IMG/VR virus record: IMGVR_UViG_3300042312_000088
Coordinates: 1 to 25,220 of that record
Reading direction: 5' to 3' (one strand)
Source: a virus
Length of the DNA: 25,220 bases
Position numbers and translations under genes: made by a program. The notes under the pieces were generated by a model. The model did no database searches. It was not told the DNA's origin and saw only the letters and a list, made by a program, of their open reading frames with translations. This document shows, one piece after another, positions 7,521-20,034 of this stretch; the first letter of the stretch is position 1; each line of letters begins with the position of its first letter.

Positions 7521-10500
7521 ATGCTGAGAGATGTTTTTTATTATGGCGAAAAGCCAAATGTCCATCCACGCGAACAATTCGCAAAAAACCTAAGTGATGC
7601 ACGTAAGAAAGCCAAAACCGAACATTTTTGGATAGTAAACGAATTTTGCGATTATAAAAATTTTGATTGGGATTTTGATTTTGACTTCTTGCCTGACGAA
7701 GATGTATGGGCACAAGATCATAATAATGTTTGGCCTAGTCAGCATCAAAAAGACAGCGGCACTTGGCTTTGTTCAAAAGAAGATAGTGATATCATCATTT
7801 ACAGAACCGATGTAAGTCCTGTAAAAAGAAAAAACGAAAAGAATAGTTGCTGGAAAATTTACACTCCTATAGACGAGAAACAATTTGATTTTAGTTGGCA
7901 TCCTGATCCAACAGATCCTTTGTTTATATTTGTATGGGGAAACAAGTATGTTAACGGTGTGTTTGAGCCTACAATAGAATACTGCACCCCGGGGGCAGTA
8001 GAAAAGAAGTATATGTTCCAACATGCTCCTATACTACCTCAATGGGAACGCTGGATAGAGCATGTACCCGTAGACAAAGAGCGCAGTATTAAAAAGGGAT
8101 TTGATTTCACTTGGCGTCCTGACCCAAGAGAACCAGCATTTAATTATGTATGGGGTAATAAGTACGAACCTGCTGAAATTAAGCCTACACTTGAATATAG
8201 AATGCCGGGTGCTACACAAATAAAATATATGGCCGAGTATGTAGAGGTACTACCACATTGGGATCGTTGGGTAGAGCATATACCGGTTGATAAAATACGT
8301 AGCGAAGATAATGGTTTTGATTTTAGCTGGAGGCCAGATCCACGTGAACCAGCATTTAATTATGTATGGGGAAATAAATTTGAAGATGCAGAAATTAAAC
8401 CTACACTAGAATATAGAATGCCTGAGGCAACTCAAATAAAATATATGCCAGAGCGTGTAGATGTGATGCCACAACAGGATCGCTGGATAATACCTGAAAA
8501 CTTAGACACTTCTGAATTTGACTTCAGTTGGCGTCCTGACCCTAGAGAGCCTGCATACATTTATGAGTTCGGTACTCAATGGCAAAAGACAGGCGGACCT
8601 CAATATGTCGCACCCGAAGCGACGGAAATAAAATACGTTGATGTACAGCAGGCTAAAGCATTACCTAACTTAAAAAACTGGGTCATACCTGATAATATTG
8701 ATAAAGATAATTTTGATTTCAGTTGGCATCCCGATAGCACAGAAGAACCCTACATATATCAATTTGGTACACAACATCAAAAGACTAATGGTCCTTATTA
8801 TATCGTAGACAATGCTGCACAAATAAAATACGTTGACGCTGTTCGTTCAATAATATTGCCTAATAAAGACAAGTGGACTATACCTGATAATTTAGATGTT
8901 TCAGAATTTGACTTTAGTTGGCACCCGGACGAAACTGAACCTCCCTATATTTACGATGCCGGTACGCAATGGCAAAAGACAGGCGGACCGAGATATATTG
9001 TTGAAGGTGCGACACAACTCAAATATCTAGAAAACAAAAAAGCAAAAGCATTACCTGACAGTAACAACTGGAGTTTACCTGTATACATTGACAAACAATC
9101 CTGGGACTTTAGTTGGCATCCTGACATAACTGAACCTCCATACATTTATTATTTTCCTACTCAGTGGGCTTTATCAGGAGGCCCGGTGTATATTGTACCG
9201 GGCGCTACAGAAAACAAATATCTAGAAGGACCTATCGCTAAAGCAACTATTAATATGGATAATTGGGAGATTCCTGATAATATTGATAAAGATAGTTTTG
9301 ATTTTAGTTGGCATCCCTTCGCACAAGATGACCCCTGCATATATCAAATAGGCACTCAGTGGCAAAAGACAGGTGGACCTAGATATATAACGCCGGGTAC
9401 TGATGAAAACAGTCCTGTAAAATATATTGACAGACGCATCATAAAATCAAAACGATTACCGGATAAAACAAATTTTAAAATACTACATCCTATTATAGAA
9501 GAAGAATTTGACTTTAGTTGGCATCCGGATACTACTGAAGAACCTTACATCTATGTATTCGGTAATCAATATTACAGTGGTGAAAAAATGCCTACAGTTG
9601 AGTATCATGTAGAAGGAGCCACGCAATATAAGTATGTCAATAATTTAAAAGCAAAACTTGCACCTAATAAAGATAATTGGCAGATAAAAATACCTATAGA
9701 TGAAGCAGCATGGGATTTCAGTTGGGTTCCGGATCCAGGCGAACCAGCCTACATCTATGTATTTGGTAATCAGTGGCATAATGCTGAAATTGAATCAACT
9801 ATTGAATATCATGTTCCCGGCGCTAGCGAAAAGAAGTATGTAAACGATATAAAGGCAACTATATTGCCCGATATGGCAAATTGGAAGTTGAACTACAAGA
9901 TTGACGAAAAGAAATTTGATTTCAGTTGGAGACCTGATCCAGGATCACCACCGTATATCTATGTGTTCGGTAGTAATCTATATCCGGCAGAAGAAATGTC
10001 ATGCTTAGAATATCATGTTCCCGACTCTACTGATTATAAATTTGTGTCTGGGATCGTAGCACAATTAGCAGAGGATAGAACTAACTGGGAAATACCTGAA
10101 AATATTGATATTACTGACTTTGATTTTAGTTGGCATCCTAATCCTAAAGATCCTGCATTCATTTATCATGCAGGTACACAATGGCAAAAGACTGGTGGAC
10201 CTAAGTATGTAGTTAAAGGTGCTAAAGAAATCAAATATCTTGAAGGTAAAAAAGTCAAAGCGTTACCTAGCATGAAGAACTGGAAGTTGCCGCAAAATAT
10301 TGATGTTACTGATTTTGATTTTAGTTGGCATCCAGATGATACAGAACCACCATACATCTATCAGTTTGGTACGCAGTGGGCAATAAGTGGCGGTCCTAAG
10401 TATGTGATGCCTAAGGCAAGAGAAATAAAATATATAGATAATCCTGTTGCTAAGATGCGTCCTAACAAGACAAACTGGGAGATACCAGATGATATTGATG

Positions 10501-13500
10501 TTGATAGTTTTGACTTCAGTTGGCATCCTTATGCAGAAGATAAACCATATATCTATCAATTCGGTACTCAGTGGCAAAAGACAGGTGGACCTAGATATAT
10601 CACCCCCGGCACTGATGAGATGAGTGCTATAAAATACATTGATCGTCGTATTTTGAAAGCAAAAAAATTACCTAACAAGAAAAATTTTGAGATTGTAGAT
10701 AATCTTTTGATTGAAGATTTTGATTATAGTTGGCATCCAGATGATACCGAACCGCCCTACATTTATATATTCGGAAATCAATGGCATAACGCTGAAGTCA
10801 TGCCTACTATAAAATATGTAGTACCCGATGCGACTAAAAACAATTATATAAAAACTCTTACAGCAAAATTAGCACCTAATATCAAAAACTGGAAAGAACT
10901 CGTATCTATTGATAAATCAAAATTTGATTTAAGTTGGGTGCCTAATCCGCATGATCCTCCATACATCTATGTATGGGGAAATAAGTATGAACCTGCTGAA
11001 ATGAAACCCACACTAGAGTACCATGTACCGGGCGCTACTGAAAAGAAATACATGGAAGAATTAGTAGAAGTATTACCACAGTGGGATAGATGGGTAAAGA
11101 AACTTCCTATTGATATTATAACAAGTAAGAATAACGGGTTTGATTTTAGTTGGAGACCAGATCCTCGAGAGCCAGCATACATTTATGTGTTTGGTAATCA
11201 GTGGAATCGTGCAGAGATAGAACCTTCTATTGAATATCGTGTTCCTGGTGCTACCGAAAAGAAGTATGTGCATGAAAAAATAGCGTATGCCATGCCTCAA
11301 CCTGACAAGTTTGAAGTATTGTTTCCTATAGAAAATTTTGACTTTAGTTGGAGACCGGATCCAGGATCACCTCCGTATATCTATGTATTTGGTAATCAAT
11401 GGAATAGTGCTGAAAAAGAACCTACGGTCAAATACAAAGTCACAGGTGCTACAGATTTTAAATACGTTAATGATATTATTGCTGAAATAAGACCTAATTT
11501 AAAATTGTGGCAAGTACCTGATGGTTTTGATGTTGAAACGTTTGACTTTAGTTGGCGCCCCGATCCTTACGATCCCCCTTACATTTATGAATTTGCGACA
11601 GAGTATGCAGATAGGGGAGGTCCTAAATACGTTGTTCCTAGTGCTACAGAAGTCAAATATATGAGCCATATAAAGGCTAAACTACGTGCTAAAGAAGTTC
11701 CTAAATATTACATTGAAACTACATTAGGTAATTTAGTTAAAAATCATCAAGATGAAGTATTCTGGGCATTACAGAAGTCAATCAATTATGATAACTTTGA
11801 TTTTAACTGGCGTCCAACGAAAGATCAAGAACAATACATACATGTGTTCGGTAGTCCTGAAAGCGAAAAGACACAAACATATTTTGTAAATTCGTCATTT
11901 TATCTACAGGGATATACTGATAAAAACTTTGTTCAACAAGATAAAAAAGCAGATAATGAATATCTTGCCGAGTTGTTCGTTCAACCAGATATCTTCTTTG
12001 TTGATCGCGGCAATAAAGAATCACAAGAGCGTTTTGAACAACTCAAAGCACGTTTCACTAACATCTCAAAGACACGCTTCTTGAATAGTTGGGTAGATAC
12101 AATCAATCGTTGTATCAACCGTAGTAATACAGAGTTGTGTTGGATATTGAATAGCGAACTTGACTATAGTGAATTTGATTTCAAGTATTACCCTAACCCC
12201 TGGCAGTTAAAGATGGTTCATGTGTTTGGAACACAGTGGAGCCACTGGGGAACTACATTCATGGTAAACCGTGAGACATTTAGCGAAGATACAAAATACA
12301 TTAAAATAATTGAACACTTGAGTAACTTAAACTTTGTCAAAGAGCGTAAAGCAAAGGCTACTAATAATCTTTATGATGTCTATGTCATAAATCATGGTAA
12401 TAAAGAATTAAATCAAGTTGTTGACGCTATAAAACTGGTCGCACATGATAAGTCTGTGACTGTTGTTGATTATGATAAAAGTTATCTACAAACTATCAAA
12501 AATATAGTGGATAATATAGTTCCTAGAAAAGAGCATTACATCTGGGTCGTAAGTAGTATTTGTAACTATAATAACTTTGATTTCACTTACATATGCGATC
12601 CATTCGCTAGAGAAAACTTACATGTATTTCCTAGTGACTCGCAAAAGTTCGGTGATACTTTCTTCTTAAATGTAAACCATACTAAGAAAGTTATTTCTGA
12701 ACTACAAATTTTACAACAGTATGATAAAGTAAACTTTAATAATACAGTTAAAACAAGACGCTTACCTGCTCCTATTATCAAAGTTAACACAGATACGCAT
12801 GTAGGAAGCATTGATACTAATTTTGATTTCCCCTATGCTATATTTACAACTGAAGAATTTAAAACCAATGATAATGAAACATTAAATTTATGGCAGGATG
12901 ATACTAAAGAATTGTTAATCACAAGTACTGGTGCCACTAGAATCGTTGTTCCTAAAGAAGCGAAACAGTATATTAAGAAAGAACTATACGATTACCCCTA
13001 TATTAAAACAGCAAGTAAGTTATTATCAAGTAAGCCGCTTGACATCGTATTTCTCAGCAACGGTGAAAAAAATGCGGAAGACAATTATAAGCACTTGCTT
13101 GCTGTGACTGATGGATTGAAAAATCGTGTCGTGCGTGTAGATGGCGTAAACGGTCGCGTTGATGCTTATCATGCTGCTGTAAAGGCAAGTGAAACTCAAT
13201 GGGCTTTCACAGTATTCGCTAAATTAAAAGTGAATGGCAAATTTGACTGGGGCTGGCAACCAGATAGATTACAAGTGCCTAAACACTATATCTTCCATGC
13301 TAAAAATCCTGTGAACGGATTAGAATACGGTCACCAAGGTATGATCGCTTACAATAAACAACTTGTGCTAAACAATTTCGGTAGTGGATTAGACTTTACA
13401 TTGGACGATCCGCATGAGACAGTAGAATTAGTATCCGGCACTGCAAACTTTAATACTGATGCTTATAGCACTTGGCGTACTGCTTTCCGTGAAGTTATAA

Positions 13501-13706
13501 AACTCAAGAGCGATTACACAGATATTAGCCAAGAACGCTTACAAGTATGGCTTACTGAGGCTAAAGGTAAATTTGCCAAAGACTGTTTACAGGGAGCGAA
13601 GGACGCAGTAGAATATTATGAAGAAGTAAATGGTGATATGGATCAACTCAAATTAAGTTATGAATGGAGTTGGTTAAAAGATTATTACAATAGGAAATAC
13701 AAATAA
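7521..13706 (+). CDS. giant FDFSW-repeat protein (2061 aa), glycosyltransferase-like ends
   Basis: The largest gene in the window. Residues 122 to about 1395 are 19 tandem units averaging about 68 aa, each with the core FDFSW(H/R)PDP..PPYIY.FG.QW, then P.Y..PGAT..KY and a closing LP...NW.IP..ID. Two subtypes mix: one with TQWQKTGGP, one with NQW..AE.EPT.EY. More degenerate units follow near residues 1426, 1555 and 1690, embedded in longer modules (DIFFVDRGNKES near 1490, YDVYVINHGNKE near 1618). The C-terminal 220 residues (DIVFLSNGEKNAED ... FAKLKVNGKFDWGWQPD) resemble a GT-A-like fold as I remember it from phage proteins. I infer that the short units are truncated copies of that module. There is no signal peptide. 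The neighbours SpeD and a UDP-sugar dehydrogenase suit a glycan role. A structural scaffold or adhesin is the alternative. The function is not established. Confidence 0.7.
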   Translation: MLRDVFYYGEKPNVHPREQFAKNLSDARKKAKTEHFWIVNEFCDYKNFDWDFDFDFLPDEDVWAQDHNNVWPSQHQKDSGTWLCSKEDSDIIIYRTDVSPVKRKNEKNSCWKIYTPIDEKQFDFSWHPDPTDPLFIFVWGNKYVNGVFEPTIEYCTPGAVEKKYMFQHAPILPQWERWIEHVPVDKERSIKKGFDFTWRPDPREPAFNYVWGNKYEPAEIKPTLEYRMPGATQIKYMAEYVEVLPHWDRWVEHIPVDKIRSEDNGFDFSWRPDPREPAFNYVWGNKFEDAEIKPTLEYRMPEATQIKYMPERVDVMPQQDRWIIPENLDTSEFDFSWRPDPREPAYIYEFGTQWQKTGGPQYVAPEATEIKYVDVQQAKALPNLKNWVIPDNIDKDNFDFSWHPDSTEEPYIYQFGTQHQKTNGPYYIVDNAAQIKYVDAVRSIILPNKDKWTIPDNLDVSEFDFSWHPDETEPPYIYDAGTQWQKTGGPRYIVEGATQLKYLENKKAKALPDSNNWSLPVYIDKQSWDFSWHPDITEPPYIYYFPTQWALSGGPVYIVPGATENKYLEGPIAKATINMDNWEIPDNIDKDSFDFSWHPFAQDDPCIYQIGTQWQKTGGPRYITPGTDENSPVKYIDRRIIKSKRLPDKTNFKILHPIIEEEFDFSWHPDTTEEPYIYVFGNQYYSGEKMPTVEYHVEGATQYKYVNNLKAKLAPNKDNWQIKIPIDEAAWDFSWVPDPGEPAYIYVFGNQWHNAEIESTIEYHVPGASEKKYVNDIKATILPDMANWKLNYKIDEKKFDFSWRPDPGSPPYIYVFGSNLYPAEEMSCLEYHVPDSTDYKFVSGIVAQLAEDRTNWEIPENIDITDFDFSWHPNPKDPAFIYHAGTQWQKTGGPKYVVKGAKEIKYLEGKKVKALPSMKNWKLPQNIDVTDFDFSWHPDDTEPPYIYQFGTQWAISGGPKYVMPKAREIKYIDNPVAKMRPNKTNWEIPDDIDVDSFDFSWHPYAEDKPYIYQFGTQWQKTGGPRYITPGTDEMSAIKYIDRRILKAKKLPNKKNFEIVDNLLIEDFDYSWHPDDTEPPYIYIFGNQWHNAEVMPTIKYVVPDATKNNYIKTLTAKLAPNIKNWKELVSIDKSKFDLSWVPNPHDPPYIYVWGNKYEPAEMKPTLEYHVPGATEKKYMEELVEVLPQWDRWVKKLPIDIITSKNNGFDFSWRPDPREPAYIYVFGNQWNRAEIEPSIEYRVPGATEKKYVHEKIAYAMPQPDKFEVLFPIENFDFSWRPDPGSPPYIYVFGNQWNSAEKEPTVKYKVTGATDFKYVNDIIAEIRPNLKLWQVPDGFDVETFDFSWRPDPYDPPYIYEFATEYADRGGPKYVVPSATEVKYMSHIKAKLRAKEVPKYYIETTLGNLVKNHQDEVFWALQKSINYDNFDFNWRPTKDQEQYIHVFGSPESEKTQTYFVNSSFYLQGYTDKNFVQQDKKADNEYLAELFVQPDIFFVDRGNKESQERFEQLKARFTNISKTRFLNSWVDTINRCINRSNTELCWILNSELDYSEFDFKYYPNPWQLKMVHVFGTQWSHWGTTFMVNRETFSEDTKYIKIIEHLSNLNFVKERKAKATNNLYDVYVINHGNKELNQVVDAIKLVAHDKSVTVVDYDKSYLQTIKNIVDNIVPRKEHYIWVVSSICNYNNFDFTYICDPFARENLHVFPSDSQKFGDTFFLNVNHTKKVISELQILQQYDKVNFNNTVKTRRLPAPIIKVNTDTHVGSIDTNFDFPYAIFTTEEFKTNDNETLNLWQDDTKELLITSTGATRIVVPKEAKQYIKKELYDYPYIKTASKLLSSKPLDIVFLSNGEKNAEDNYKHLLAVTDGLKNRVVRVDGVNGRVDAYHAAVKASETQWAFTVFAKLKVNGKFDWGWQPDRLQVPKHYIFHAKNPVNGLEYGHQGMIAYNKQLVLNNFGSGLDFTLDDPHETVELVSGTANFNTDAYSTWRTAFREVIKLKSDYTDISQERLQVWLTEAKGKFAKDCLQGAKDAVEYYEEVNGDMDQLKLSYEWSWLKDYYNRKYK
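7884..11690 (+). repeat. 19 tandem protein-coding repeats (about 200 bp period)
   Basis: Each unit is recognisable by the codons for FDFSW(H/R)PD, from the first at 7884 to the nineteenth at 11541. The DNA copies have drifted at synonymous sites, so the array is old and selected at protein level rather than a recent slippage product. Higher-order structure is visible: units 6-9 match units 12-15 in order, including two otherwise unusual units (8 and 14) with TPGTDE and KYIDRR inserts. Units 2-3 match units 16-17, including the long PVDKIRSEDNG-type linker. This indicates block duplication of several units at once. Confidence 0.85.
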
Positions 13707-14081: not shown

Positions 14082-15260
14082 ATGAAGAAAGTGGCGATGA
14101 TCGGCGTAGGCAAGTTAGGGCAAGACTGCGCCGAAGTCATGGCATTACATTATGATACTGTAGGTTATGATATTAGTACAAAAACTACTACATTTCCTAT
14201 GAAAGATTCTATCAAAGATGCAGTAGTTGACAGAGATTTTATCTTTATCGCTGCTCCTACTCCTCATGATCCTATATATGGTGGCGAAACACCTACTAGT
14301 CATTTACCTAACAAAGATTTTGATTACACTATCGTTACAGATATATTAAAAGAAGTAAACAAGTACGTTAATAAGAATCAATTGGTAGTACTCATTAGTA
14401 CTGTCTTGCCGGGAACTGTACGCAGCCAGTTGGAACCTTGTATCACCAACGCACGATTCATTTACAATCCATATCTGATTGCTATGGGTACTGTCAAACA
14501 TGATATGGTAAATCCTGAAATGATCATCATAGGCACAGAAGATGGTAGTGTAACAGGTGACGCTAAAGAATTAATAGATTTCTATAATGTCTTTATGGAA
14601 AATGATCCACGTTATGAAGTTGGTACATGGGATGAAGCAGAAAGTATAAAAATTTTCTATAATACCTTTATTAGTACAAAGTTAGCATTAGTTAACATGT
14701 TACAGGATGTTGCTGAAACGAACGGCAATATTAATGTTGACGTAGTTACAAACGCATTAGCAAAGTCCACACATCGTATCATGGGTCCTGCATATATGAA
14801 AGCAGGATTAGGGGATGCAGGAGCATGTCATCCAAGAGATAATATTGCATTACGTTATCTAGCCGAACGTCTAGGATTAGGATATGATTTGTTTGATGCC
14901 ATTATGACTGCTAGAGAAGTACAAGCAGAACGTATGGCTAAAAAATGCTTAGAGTACGGCAAGAACGTTACAATTGTCGGCAAAGCATACAAGCCCAAAA
15001 TACCCTACACCAACTGTAGCGCAAGTATGTTAGTGGGACACTATATTGAGAAGCATGGTGGCAATCTACATTACTATGATGAGCATACAGGTGATACAGA
15101 TTTACGCTCAGACTGGACAGAAGTTTACTTGATAGGCTACTGGGACAATTATACACAACAATTAAATTTTCCACAATCTGCGACGGTCATTGACCCTTGG
15201 CGACAGATAAAAACGCACAAAGGCAGTACTATATTTTACGGAAATACAAGAAAAGTATAA
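14082..15260 (+). CDS. ugd: UDP-glucose/GDP-mannose dehydrogenase family protein
   Basis: A 392-aa NAD-dependent sugar-nucleotide dehydrogenase, which oxidises the C6 hydroxyl of a UDP- or GDP-sugar twice to give the uronate. The N-terminal GVGKLG (residues 8-13) is the Rossmann GxGxxG; STVLPGTVR (106-114) and the NTFISTKLALVNM helix (194-206) with Lys200 fit the central domain; GDAGACHPRDN (244-254) holds the catalytic Cys249 and Asp253; GKAYKP marks the C-terminal UDP-binding domain. It is shorter than many bacterial Ugd proteins (about 430 aa) but complete. It is the last gene of the rightward cassette, and its TAA stop overlaps a TATAAATA motif. The product, probably UDP-glucuronate, would feed glycan synthesis. 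The substrate could also be UDP-HexNAc or GDP-mannose. Confidence 0.85.
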   Translation: MKKVAMIGVGKLGQDCAEVMALHYDTVGYDISTKTTTFPMKDSIKDAVVDRDFIFIAAPTPHDPIYGGETPTSHLPNKDFDYTIVTDILKEVNKYVNKNQLVVLISTVLPGTVRSQLEPCITNARFIYNPYLIAMGTVKHDMVNPEMIIIGTEDGSVTGDAKELIDFYNVFMENDPRYEVGTWDEAESIKIFYNTFISTKLALVNMLQDVAETNGNINVDVVTNALAKSTHRIMGPAYMKAGLGDAGACHPRDNIALRYLAERLGLGYDLFDAIMTAREVQAERMAKKCLEYGKNVTIVGKAYKPKIPYTNCSASMLVGHYIEKHGGNLHYYDEHTGDTDLRSDWTEVYLIGYWDNYTQQLNFPQSATVIDPWRQIKTHKGSTIFYGNTRKV

Positions 15261-15263
15261 ATA
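15256..15263 (+). promoter_or_regulatory. T4-type late promoter TATAAATA
   Basis: A perfect TATAAATA, overlapping the stop codon of the dehydrogenase gene. Transcription would begin near 15269. The next 177 bp on this strand contain no gene, so its likely product is the structured RNA described separately. It could also be an incidental match in AT-rich DNA, but the placement immediately before a structured non-coding gap argues for function. Confidence 0.5.
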
Positions 15264-15268
15264 AACTG

Positions 15269-15433
15269 AGCCGCACGACCTTCTGGAGTAGTGTTTGTCG
15301 CATAGCGATGGCGTTGTTGTAGGGTCAAGATGTTTCCGGGACATCAGAGACAAACCAGAAAAAAGGCTTCGGTCAGTACTGTGGGAAGTACAGATCGAGA
15401 AGACTAGGACAAGGTTCGAATCCAAGCCGAAGC
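15269..15433 (+). ncRNA. structured RNA of unknown class with tRNA-like 3' domain
   Basis: This gap lies between convergent genes. The 5' domain is closed by TTCTG (15281-15285) pairing with CAGAA (15356-15360) and GTTTGTC (15293-15299) with GACAAAC (15349-15355), separated by a 7-nt bulge. Inside it a perfect hairpin GATGT-TTCCGGG-ACATC spans 15329-15345. The 3' domain is closed by 7 bp, GCTTCGG (15366-15372) with CCGAAGC (15427-15433). It holds a GTAC/GTAC D-arm-like hairpin with a GGG loop (15376-15391) and a canonical T-loop TTCGAAT (15415-15421). The T-stem has two mismatches, the anticodon arm is about 5 nt too short, and no CCA follows, so it is not a normal tRNA. It may be a decayed tRNA, a tRNA mimic or a regulatory RNA. 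On the minus strand the 7-bp stem is followed by a T-run, so part could act as a terminator for the leftward gene. Confidence 0.4.
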
Positions 15434-17506: not shown

Positions 17507-17514
17507 TATTTATT
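17507..17514 (-). promoter_or_regulatory. late-type promoter AATAAATA (leftward)
   Basis: On the minus strand AATAAATA matches TATAAATA at seven of eight positions and is followed by exactly 5 nt and then the ATG at 17501. This is the same spacing as at 19064, 19553 and 20036. A transcript starting at the usual late position would begin at or next to the ATG. It overlaps the -35 box of the rightward promoter at 17513. Confidence 0.55.
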
Positions 17515-18841: not shown

Positions 18842-19066
18842 ATGAGCAAAACACCATACGAGATCCGTCTGGATCTACTAAGACTGGCTAAAGAAAGTCT
18901 CTTTGAGCCATACTTTTACGCAAGGTCAAATAAGGAACTAGAGTGGAACGCACAACGGGATGCAAATCCTTATGCACCATTTCCAGAAATGCCTACAGCA
19001 CCCACATCAGAAGATATTATTGCCGAAGCGAAAAAACTAAACGAGTTTGTTAGCAAGGGCGAATAA
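18842..19066 (+). CDS. small unknown phage protein (74 aa)
   Basis: MSKTPYEIRLDLLRLAKE... has a helical N-terminal half, a Pro/Ala-rich middle (PYAPFPEMPTAPTS) and a C-terminal EDIIAEAKKLNEFVSKGE helix. The start is well supported by a full AGGAGG (18831-18836) 5 nt before the ATG, the strongest ribosome-binding site in this half of the window, so it is probably highly translated. Similar short MSKTPYEIRL-type proteins occur, as I recall, in T4-like cyanophages, without assigned function. Its stop codon TAA is part of the TAAATA box that leads the next small gene. It may bind a host or phage protein; nothing in the sequence says which. Confidence 0.75.
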   Translation: MSKTPYEIRLDLLRLAKESLFEPYFYARSNKELEWNAQRDANPYAPFPEMPTAPTSEDIIAEAKKLNEFVSKGE

Positions 19067-19069
19067 ATA
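19064..19069 (+). promoter_or_regulatory. late-type TAAATA box
   Basis: AATAAATA contains TAAATA at 19064-19069, followed by exactly 5 nt (CCTAT) and an ATG at 19075. It overlaps the stop of the preceding gene. It would drive the 40-aa membrane peptide and, downstream, the permuted tmRNA. Confidence 0.45.
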
Positions 19070-19074
19070 CCTAT

Positions 19075-19197
19075 ATGGATAGCACAGAAACATTATTGAA
19101 AGTTTCTATTGCGGCAGTTGGGGCATATATTTTGTCCCATCTGCTCTATAGATTAGCACTAGAAGTCTGGTGTATAGCGTACGGATTAGTTTATTGA
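19075..19197 (+). CDS. small membrane peptide (40 aa)
   Basis: An ATG-to-TGA frame encoding MDSTETLLKVSIAAVGAYI..., a short acidic head followed by about 28 mostly hydrophobic residues ending CIAYGLVY, consistent with one transmembrane helix. There is no ribosome-binding site; the start is the position predicted by the TAAATA-N5-ATG pattern, which is the main support. It fills the space between the 74-aa gene and the tmRNA acceptor piece, and ends at about the acceptor piece's 5' boundary. It could be an accessory lysis or superinfection protein (speculative), or a non-coding leader of the tmRNA precursor. Confidence 0.45.
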   Translation: MDSTETLLKVSIAAVGAYILSHLLYRLALEVWCIAYGLVY

Positions 19198-19443
19198 TAT
19201 GACTGTAGGAAGTGAGGAGAAAGATGCTTTGGACGCGGGTGCGAATCCCGCCATCTCCACCAATAGATTGATTGATGAACCTCGCAATCTGTTTTTTACA
19301 GAGCGTGAGTGGAGTAGAATAGTAGGTTGGGATCTTCCCCCAATGGAAAACACAAAGGGGATGAACAGTTTCGACAGGGCAAGTAGTACCCAAGCAGACA
19401 GTCCGAAAGACGACTGACGTAATCAGCGTAAATCAAAGTAAAC

Positions 19444-19476
19444 GCAAATGATGAAACATTTGCTCTAGCAGCCTAA
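19444..19476 (+). other. tmRNA proteolysis-tag reading frame
   Basis: GCA resume codon, then codons for ANDETFALAA and TAA. The segment is preceded by AAGTAAAC, resembling the sequence before the resume codon in other tmRNAs. The C-terminal LAA is the signature recognised by ClpXP and ClpAP. From memory the tag looks more like beta- or gammaproteobacterial tags (ANDENYALAA in E. coli) than like the longer alphaproteobacterial or cyanobacterial ones. Confidence 0.9.
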
Positions 19477-19517
19477 GGGCAGTTAGATGGGGTTGACGAC
19501 CTTATTAACCAATAGTC

Positions 19518-19545
19518 AGGTGGGGACTTTTGTCCCTACCTTTTT
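19518..19545 (+). terminator. intrinsic terminator of the tmRNA
   Basis: A 10-bp stem AGGTGGGGAC / GTCCCTACCT (one G-U pair) with a TTTT loop, followed by a T-run (19541-19545). It closes the tmRNA transcript just before the TATAAATA of the next gene. Confidence 0.85.
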
Positions 19546-19550
19546 ATCGT

Positions 19551-19558
19551 TATAAATA
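19551..19558 (+). promoter_or_regulatory. T4-type late promoter TATAAATA
   Basis: A perfect TATAAATA placed directly after the tmRNA terminator and followed by exactly 5 nt (TCTGG) before the ATG at 19564. There is no ribosome-binding site, so the mRNA is predicted to be leaderless. Confidence 0.65.
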
Positions 19559-19563
19559 TCTGG

Positions 19564-20034
19564 ATGAAAGTTCACTTTATAGACAGGCTTGATAAAACAT
19601 TTGTAAATGTTAATAAGTTATTATTAGAATTTGAATTATTTAAGGATAGGATAATTGACGTTACTAATCACGGTAATGCTGTGCTAGTTCAGAAGAAATT
19701 TCATTTGATTTTAAATAATAAAGAATCAGAGGATTTAAACAAGGTTGAATACACACTTTCTGTGATAAACCAACTAAAAGAACATTTAGAATTTGATAGT
19801 GTGACATATAGATTTGTGATGCCTAATACATGTTACAATTGGCATAATGACGCAGGCGAGATTTGTCTACATATACCTCTAATAACTAATCCTGGCTGTC
19901 ACTTTGTATACGACCATAGAGCATTTTCTATGCCCGCAGACGGGTCGGTCTATGTCGTAAACAATGGCAGAATGCATACTTTTGTCAATGCCGGAGCGTC
20001 CCCCAGATTGCATCTAACCTTTGAAAAACTCTAA
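19564..20034 (+). CDS. aspartyl/asparaginyl beta-hydroxylase-like protein
   Basis: A 156-aa protein whose C-terminal half has the double-stranded beta-helix motifs of the Asp/Asn hydroxylase branch of 2-oxoglutarate/Fe(II) oxygenases. NWHND gives the iron-binding His94 and Asp96; GRMHTFVN gives the distal His138; SPRLHLTF gives Arg148, which would bind 2-oxoglutarate. LHIPL and the Gly/Ser-Val-Tyr strand between them also fit. It is small, only the catalytic core, as is usual for phage members. Such enzymes hydroxylate Asp, Asn or Pro side chains of proteins; the target here is unknown. It is its own leaderless late-type unit between the tmRNA terminator and the nucleotidyltransferase gene. 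Confidence 0.75.
   Translation: MKVHFIDRLDKTFVNVNKLLLEFELFKDRIIDVTNHGNAVLVQKKFHLILNNKESEDLNKVEYTLSVINQLKEHLEFDSVTYRFVMPNTCYNWHNDAGEICLHIPLITNPGCHFVYDHRAFSMPADGSVYVVNNGRMHTFVNAGASPRLHLTFEKL

Follow-up and report, generated by a model that had tools for sequence, protein, structure and literature searches.

The DNA analysed here (a 25,220-base virus contig, referred to at its full length as the window) carries a genuine, structurally maintained gene for a permuted, two-piece tmRNA of the beta type. The best explanation, to which we assign a probability of roughly 0.8, is that this gene belongs to a T4-like phage, forms a late transcription unit of its own and yields a precursor that doubles as an mRNA. 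The precursor would be transcribed from its own late-type promoter to its own terminator. Left uncut, it could be translated from an ATG at position 19199 through the acceptor piece and the intervening spacer (IVS) into the coding piece, giving a small protein. Cleavage by host RNase P and 3′-processing nucleases at 19262/19263 and 19356/19357 would instead produce a mature two-piece tmRNA, charged with alanine via G3-U70 and working with the help of host SmpB, and would destroy the ORF. Since processing destroys the ORF, each transcript would serve only one role. This mutual exclusion of ORF and tmRNA would follow from the anatomy of the gene; its regulatory use we infer. An earlier note, made from the letters of the window, had pointed to the need for host processing of such a precursor, correctly in our judgement.

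A permuted beta-type tmRNA gene

ARAGORN, run on the window, made a single call, a permuted tmRNA* at 19170-19567 with the tag ANDETFALAA. Two Rfam covariance models match the same region: RF04321 (tmRNA_permuted) at 19201-19476, with 132.3 bits against a gathering threshold of 47 (E 4.5e-26; model positions 1-213, complete), and RF01850 (beta_tmRNA) at 19146-19543, with 125.3 bits against a gathering threshold of 84 (E 3.7e-38), the top score of its clan. The relatives used in this work score 101–129 bits with RF01850, also above gathering. Thus, a permuted tmRNA does lie where the earlier note had placed it, and the match to a beta-type family agrees with the beta/gamma-like tag noted there.

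On the plus strand, the 3′ (acceptor) piece occupies 19201..19262, as delimited by sequence, ARAGORN, Rfam and helix covariation. It contains the T arm (sequence, ARAGORN and Rfam), the acceptor 3′ strand CATCTCC (19252-19258) and A73 with the encoded CCA (19259-19262). It is followed on the same strand by the 94-nt IVS (19263..19356), which is expected to be removed from the mature tmRNA, and by the 5′ (coding) piece (19357..19518; sequence, Rfam and helix covariation), which starts with the acceptor 5′ strand GGGGATG (19357-19363). In P2, CAGGGCA (19375-19381) pairs with TGCTTTG (19225-19231), and covariation defines a second cross-permutation helix between 19202-19206 of the 3′ piece and 19398-19402 of the 5′ piece. 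The tag reading frame, ANDETFALAA followed by TAA, lies at 19444..19476 (sequence and ARAGORN). An intrinsic terminator, GGTGGGGAC-TTTT-GTCCCTACC and then a T run, was read from the sequence at about 19519..19546, again on the plus strand, and its helix is part of the RF01850 alignment. Acceptor stem, P2, spacer length, complete tag frame and terminator all read as first described. Unusually long tags are predicted for some other phage genes (L125, L152, L220 and L191), for example ANVSTFKFWQSPVSVAANDEAFALAA and VNAKADTIDFSAMSFTGNSVSGKSKVALAA.

Acceptor pairing across the permutation, including G3·U70, is kept in all of 102 distinct phage relatives. There are no exceptions to G-U at pair 3 or to G-C at pairs 1, 2 and 7; pairs 4-6 occur in several compensated forms. 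Our parser required seven out of seven acceptor pairs and failed on only 2 of 107 entries. The second cross-permutation helix, which joins the beginning of the acceptor piece to the coding piece, covaries as well, with GCTGT/ACAGC found 43 times, GTTGT/ACAAC 23 times, and ACTGT/ACAGT and ATCGT/ACGAT 7 times each; the latter two are forms used in the window clade. Compensation of the acceptor pairs across the 102 relatives indicates that the tmRNA call is not due to chance. The predicted minimum free energy fold of the window precursor is of ordinary stability (z –0.55) and was therefore left out of the evidence.

Phage-borne two-piece tmRNAs have been published before. In PMC9004378, 53 of 133 unique phage tmRNAs are reported as two-piece, mostly from marine or aquatic sources, and permuted tmRNAs are described for the T4-like phages Melnitz and Mosig. 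Given these reports and the permuted tmRNAs annotated in the records of Stenotrophomonas phage Marzo and Pelagibacter phage Mosig, the novelty that the earlier note had attached to a permuted tmRNA in a phage is not supported: the window gene is a further beta-type member of an already published group. Like the reported genes of Melnitz and Mosig, it is phage-borne, permuted and found in a T4-like phage; unlike that of Melnitz, reported to be alpha-type, it is of the beta type (PMC9004378). We found permuted tmRNAs in Stenotrophomonas phages DLP_6 and Marzo, Xanthomonas phages X1 and Rb1, an Alcaligenes phage and Pelagibacter phage Mosig. In the records of DLP_6, X1, Rb1 and Alcaligenes phage QDWS595, the permuted tmRNAs (L251 2974-3317, L254 780-1230, L256 772-1200 and L257 751-1127) are not annotated as such.

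The window gene shares with betaproteobacterial tmRNA, as represented by RF04321 and RF01850, its gene order, cross-permutation acceptor pairing, G3-U70, encoded CCA, P2, tag position and 3′ helix, and both models match it over their full length. It differs in the spacer, which is 94 nt long compared to 4–47 nt in 13 parsed betaproteobacterial IVSs (for some of which the parser may be a few bases out of register), is coding, and is crossed by an ORF that reads through both pieces. None of the 13 has an SD-led ORF; they serve as our IVS control, which covers betaproteobacterial spacers, and alphaproteobacterial ones may still contain ORFs. Complete RF04321 matches span 261–422 nt in the phage genes scanned; matches in the listed cellular loci of the permuted type span mostly 185–250 nt.

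A reading frame across the intervening spacer

An ATG-initiated ORF of 72 codons (19199..19417, plus strand) runs from the 3′ piece through the IVS and extends 61 nt into the 5′ piece. The intervening segment is more than a spacer; the earlier note had missed both this frame and the cassettes present in relatives. Nine distinct variants carry the same open frame (the window, L005, L067, L070, L076, L097, L098, L099 and L252), and we refer to them as the window clade. In eight of them the IVS is complete or nearly so; L252 breaks off early in the spacer, and L098 soon after the 5′ piece begins. The frame is open in all informative members. The eight measurable spacers are 79, 79, 79, 91, 94, 94, 97 and 124 nt long, all 1 mod 3, and at least four in-frame length changes have occurred within the clade. 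Early in the 3′ half, an ancestral in-frame UGA has been replaced by GGA, AGA or CGA, that is, by three different substitutions. Outside the clade this UGA is retained in all 23 other genes with the ATG and in 61 of 65 without it; of the four genes that depart from this, two reflect a misaligned motif.

The coding core of the IVS, PRNLFFTEREWSRIVGW (19280-19330, plus strand), was delimited by codon tests and the clade alignment. Substitutions in these 51 nt are mostly at third positions. The core accumulated 41 amino-acid differences compared to 81.9 ± 7.1 in a column-permuted null (0 of 2000 permutations; five members, none of them retrieved by a peptide query), and the other two frames gave the null value. 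Every locus returned by a scan of 2.9 million viral contigs with a degenerate core peptide belongs to this clade and lies in a permuted-tmRNA IVS, and a scan with only the altered acceptor piece recovered members that have the frame whenever their IVS is complete. The core peptide had no homologue outside IVSs in the 2.9 million viral contigs or, by tblastn, in 50,697 phage records, and no annotated domain. Protein coding by the window-clade IVS is thus well supported by the pattern of codon evolution. That the product has a function, and that its translation is coupled to processing, we infer.

The same gene could also be read as an ordinary phage permuted tmRNA with an accidentally open frame, its IVS being conserved as RNA or through recent descent. 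Structured RNA does force conservation on both sides of the spacer, the T arm with CCA (ALDAGANPAIST) commonly gives a spurious ORF, and the window ORF has no SD. About 40 of its codons lie in the RNA halves, where coding selection and the constraint of RNA structure are confounded. However, the third-position bias and an amino-acid conservation far beyond the permuted null, the four or more in-frame length changes, the loss of UGA by three different substitutions and the independent occurrence of SD-led ORFs at this place in relatives make an accident distinctly improbable.

The contexts of the start codon in the clade are plausibly adequate for initiation. In five members an SD lies within a short late leader, and L005 is leaderless. 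In the window, L070 and L099 a stop codon precedes the ATG by 1–5 nt, and the window ORF would rely on a presumed coupling to the ORF upstream. The latter (19075..19197, plus strand) would encode 40 amino acids, MDSTETLLKVSIAAVGAYILSHLLYRLALEVWCIAYGLVY, which hydropathy marks as weakly TM-like; its TGA ends 1 nt before ATG 19199, making translational coupling of the two frames possible. Sequence and promoter spacing suggest that this upstream ORF is probably leaderless.

A T4-type late promoter element, AATAAATA, was found by WATAAATA motif analysis at 19062..19069 of the plus strand. The window has four WATAAATA motifs, each a short way upstream of the place where a feature starts. Three are followed by N5-ATG, compared to 0.19 expected, and a spacing of 5 is also the commonest motif-to-ATG distance across relatives (10 of 49 motifs, 12 loci). 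Such a spacing suggests that the late mRNAs are leaderless, and the transcript from the 19062 element would then start at about 19075. With the terminator at 19519-19546, this promoter would define a self-contained late unit. Late motifs exactly 5 nt before an ATG are located at 17507 (minus strand), 19062 and 19551 of the window and are found in relatives too. A COG2908 RNA motif (RF02939, 67 bits) at 15256-15313 of the window begins exactly at the start expected from TATAAATA at 15256. It also occurs upstream of the tmRNA gene in L067, L076, L097, L098, L099 and L004; as a candidate structured RNA, it could be either a leader or a late RNA of the phage.

Small genes in the spacers of related phages

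Of 102 distinct phage IVSs, 18 have an SD abutting the CCA and then, at +10 to +14, an ATG whose frame is in every case open for at least 20 codons. The corresponding null values were a mean of 0.8 (maximum 5) with the middle of the spacer shuffled and a mean of 3.9 (maximum 9) with SD and ATG kept. We used this placement test (SD next to CCA, position of ATG) in place of a generic search for the longest SD-led ORF, which came out only moderately above shuffles. About three quarters of the phage IVSs contain no ORF of either kind, and there is no SD-led cassette ORF in the five isolate-phage IVSs that were parsed (Marzo, X1, Rb1, the Alcaligenes phage and Mosig), unlike in some of the relatives studied here. 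The script misparsed DLP_6 and QDWS359; by eye, DLP_6 has a short IVS.

Several cassettes encode one-span hydrophobic peptides of 24–41 aa (MNDD..FAIVLL, MFxEWHWVY.., MxIEWYHVLL.. and MDEEMIY..), and others encode soluble peptides of 35–68 aa. Codon conservation in the WHWVY family was reached in 26 of 2000 permutations; the two-sequence tests of the MNDD and WYHVL pairs were each not significant alone. A tblastn search with the L143, L114, WHWVY and PRNLFFTEREW peptides gave no convincing homologue in 50,697 phage records. Within the WHWVY family, IVS identity (82–99%) exceeds 5′-half identity (62–80%) in 15 of 15 pairs, and the nearest tmRNA backbones mostly lack the cassette. Since the spacers are more alike than their backbones, the spacer appears to have been exchanged independently of the RNA.

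Some of the SD signal could have a structural origin: in predicted precursor folds the cassette SD is base-paired with the final part of the ORF, which lengthens the acceptor stem, and the SD overlaps in part with an ancestral helix at the IVS ends that bacteria also show. In eight cassettes from several families, the stop codon ends one base before the coding piece, and the TGAT motif at these stops is already present in bacterial spacers.

The position of the stop codons bears on a further scheme, in which the RNase P cut at 19356/19357 would turn the ORF into a non-stop mRNA to be rescued and tagged by the tmRNA. The protein would then accumulate only when trans-translation is limiting, by analogy with ArfA. 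As for arfA, a message possibly truncated by RNA processing would be sensed by trans-translation; unlike there, message and tmRNA are the same transcript here and the regulation is hypothetical. The stop codon lies in the 5′ piece throughout the window clade and in about half of the SD-led cassettes, as the scheme would have it. But the eight cassettes that stop just before the cleavage site would not become non-stop, and 3′-processing in the window clade would also remove the start codon. As an extension of the dual-function precursor the scheme is attractive but unproven, and we think it unlikely.

In related phages, the slot filled by the coding IVS in the window clade holds SD-led small genes instead, often for one-span membrane microproteins, and these appear to have been swapped between backbones. 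More tentatively, and at somewhat less than even odds, the spacer may be an exchangeable protein-gene slot in which translation of a small phage protein competes with tmRNA maturation, coupling protein output and rescue on one late transcript. Spacers of permuted tmRNAs have so far been treated as waste. If the proposal is true, a structured RNA precursor doubles as mRNA, families of phage microproteins are hidden from annotation, and ribosome rescue is linked to phage protein production in a way that can be tested. The retention of permuted tmRNAs by phages would then also have a possible reason, since permutation makes a gene slot under a shared promoter and terminator.

Homing-endonuclease ORFs occur in group I introns of tmRNA genes. 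The arrangement described here is similar in that a protein gene occupies a stretch of the tmRNA precursor that can be removed, but this segment is a permutation spacer that is not self-splicing, and its products (24–82 aa) have no recognised resemblance to endonucleases. Extra sequence in single IVSs has been reported in the 2025 tmRNA database (PMC11915505), in one case a tRNA-Ala gene and in another a repetitive element; here the extra sequence is protein-coding. A protein-coding IVS is not mentioned, and the word ORF does not occur, in the open text of that paper, and the passages of PMC9004378 on phage two-piece tmRNAs do not mention IVS coding. Nor is a protein encoded in a permuted-tmRNA spacer mentioned in passages of PMC3985003 and PMC3978253 or in the open papers searched in full text, and an earlier mention elsewhere is possible.

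Phage context, SmpB and host

Neighbours of the tmRNA gene in the window include a Nol-like carbamoyltransferase, SAM decarboxylase, UDP-glucose dehydrogenase and an AAA-type ATPase, genes typical of large phages. The same tmRNA gene was recovered in relatives both via neighbour genes and via the tag sequence. The T4-like context proposed in the earlier note is borne out by a T4-type Gp23 major capsid protein (E about 1e-99) in 5 of 14 longer gene-carrying relatives; the search covered these relatives, the 25-kb window itself being partial.

No smpB was found elsewhere in the phage, a check that the earlier note had suggested: neither the window nor any of the 14 longer relatives contains a PF01668 match. 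These records are probably partial, and an SmpB of its own is not a defining feature of a tmRNA. The phage tmRNA would thus depend on host SmpB. A phage-borne tmRNA for which no own SmpB was found could also interfere with host trans-translation as a decoy or inhibitor. Such a part has been proposed for the CDS-less tmRNA of phage DS6A, of which a form is reported to inhibit endogenous tmRNA. However, G3-U70, CCA, covarying helices and complete tag frames, mostly ending in LAA or AA, are kept in many relatives, which fits active tagging and makes a decoy highly improbable.

An RF01850-type gene scored above cut-off in only 6 of 200 Burkholderiales genomes. An exact-tag scan of bacterial genomes gave no matches with a first pattern and, with a second, mainly genes of Thiobacillus, Hydrogenophilales and Noviherbaspirillum. 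ARAGORN calls these genes one-piece, with the tags ANDETYALAA or DETYALAA; they were rejected as pointers to a host, and no host is inferred from the scan. Noviherbaspirillum aerium has a second, permuted tmRNA (L227; G015:C1:32777-33058) with a long tag, ANTFMSKVTDVGHNYAGFAANDSRFQLVANA, possibly on a prophage, its other tmRNA being called one-piece. Elsewhere in the window, a 2,061-aa protein without a Pfam match (7521-13706) contains about 20 imperfect FDFSWRPDPxxPxYIYxFG repeats.
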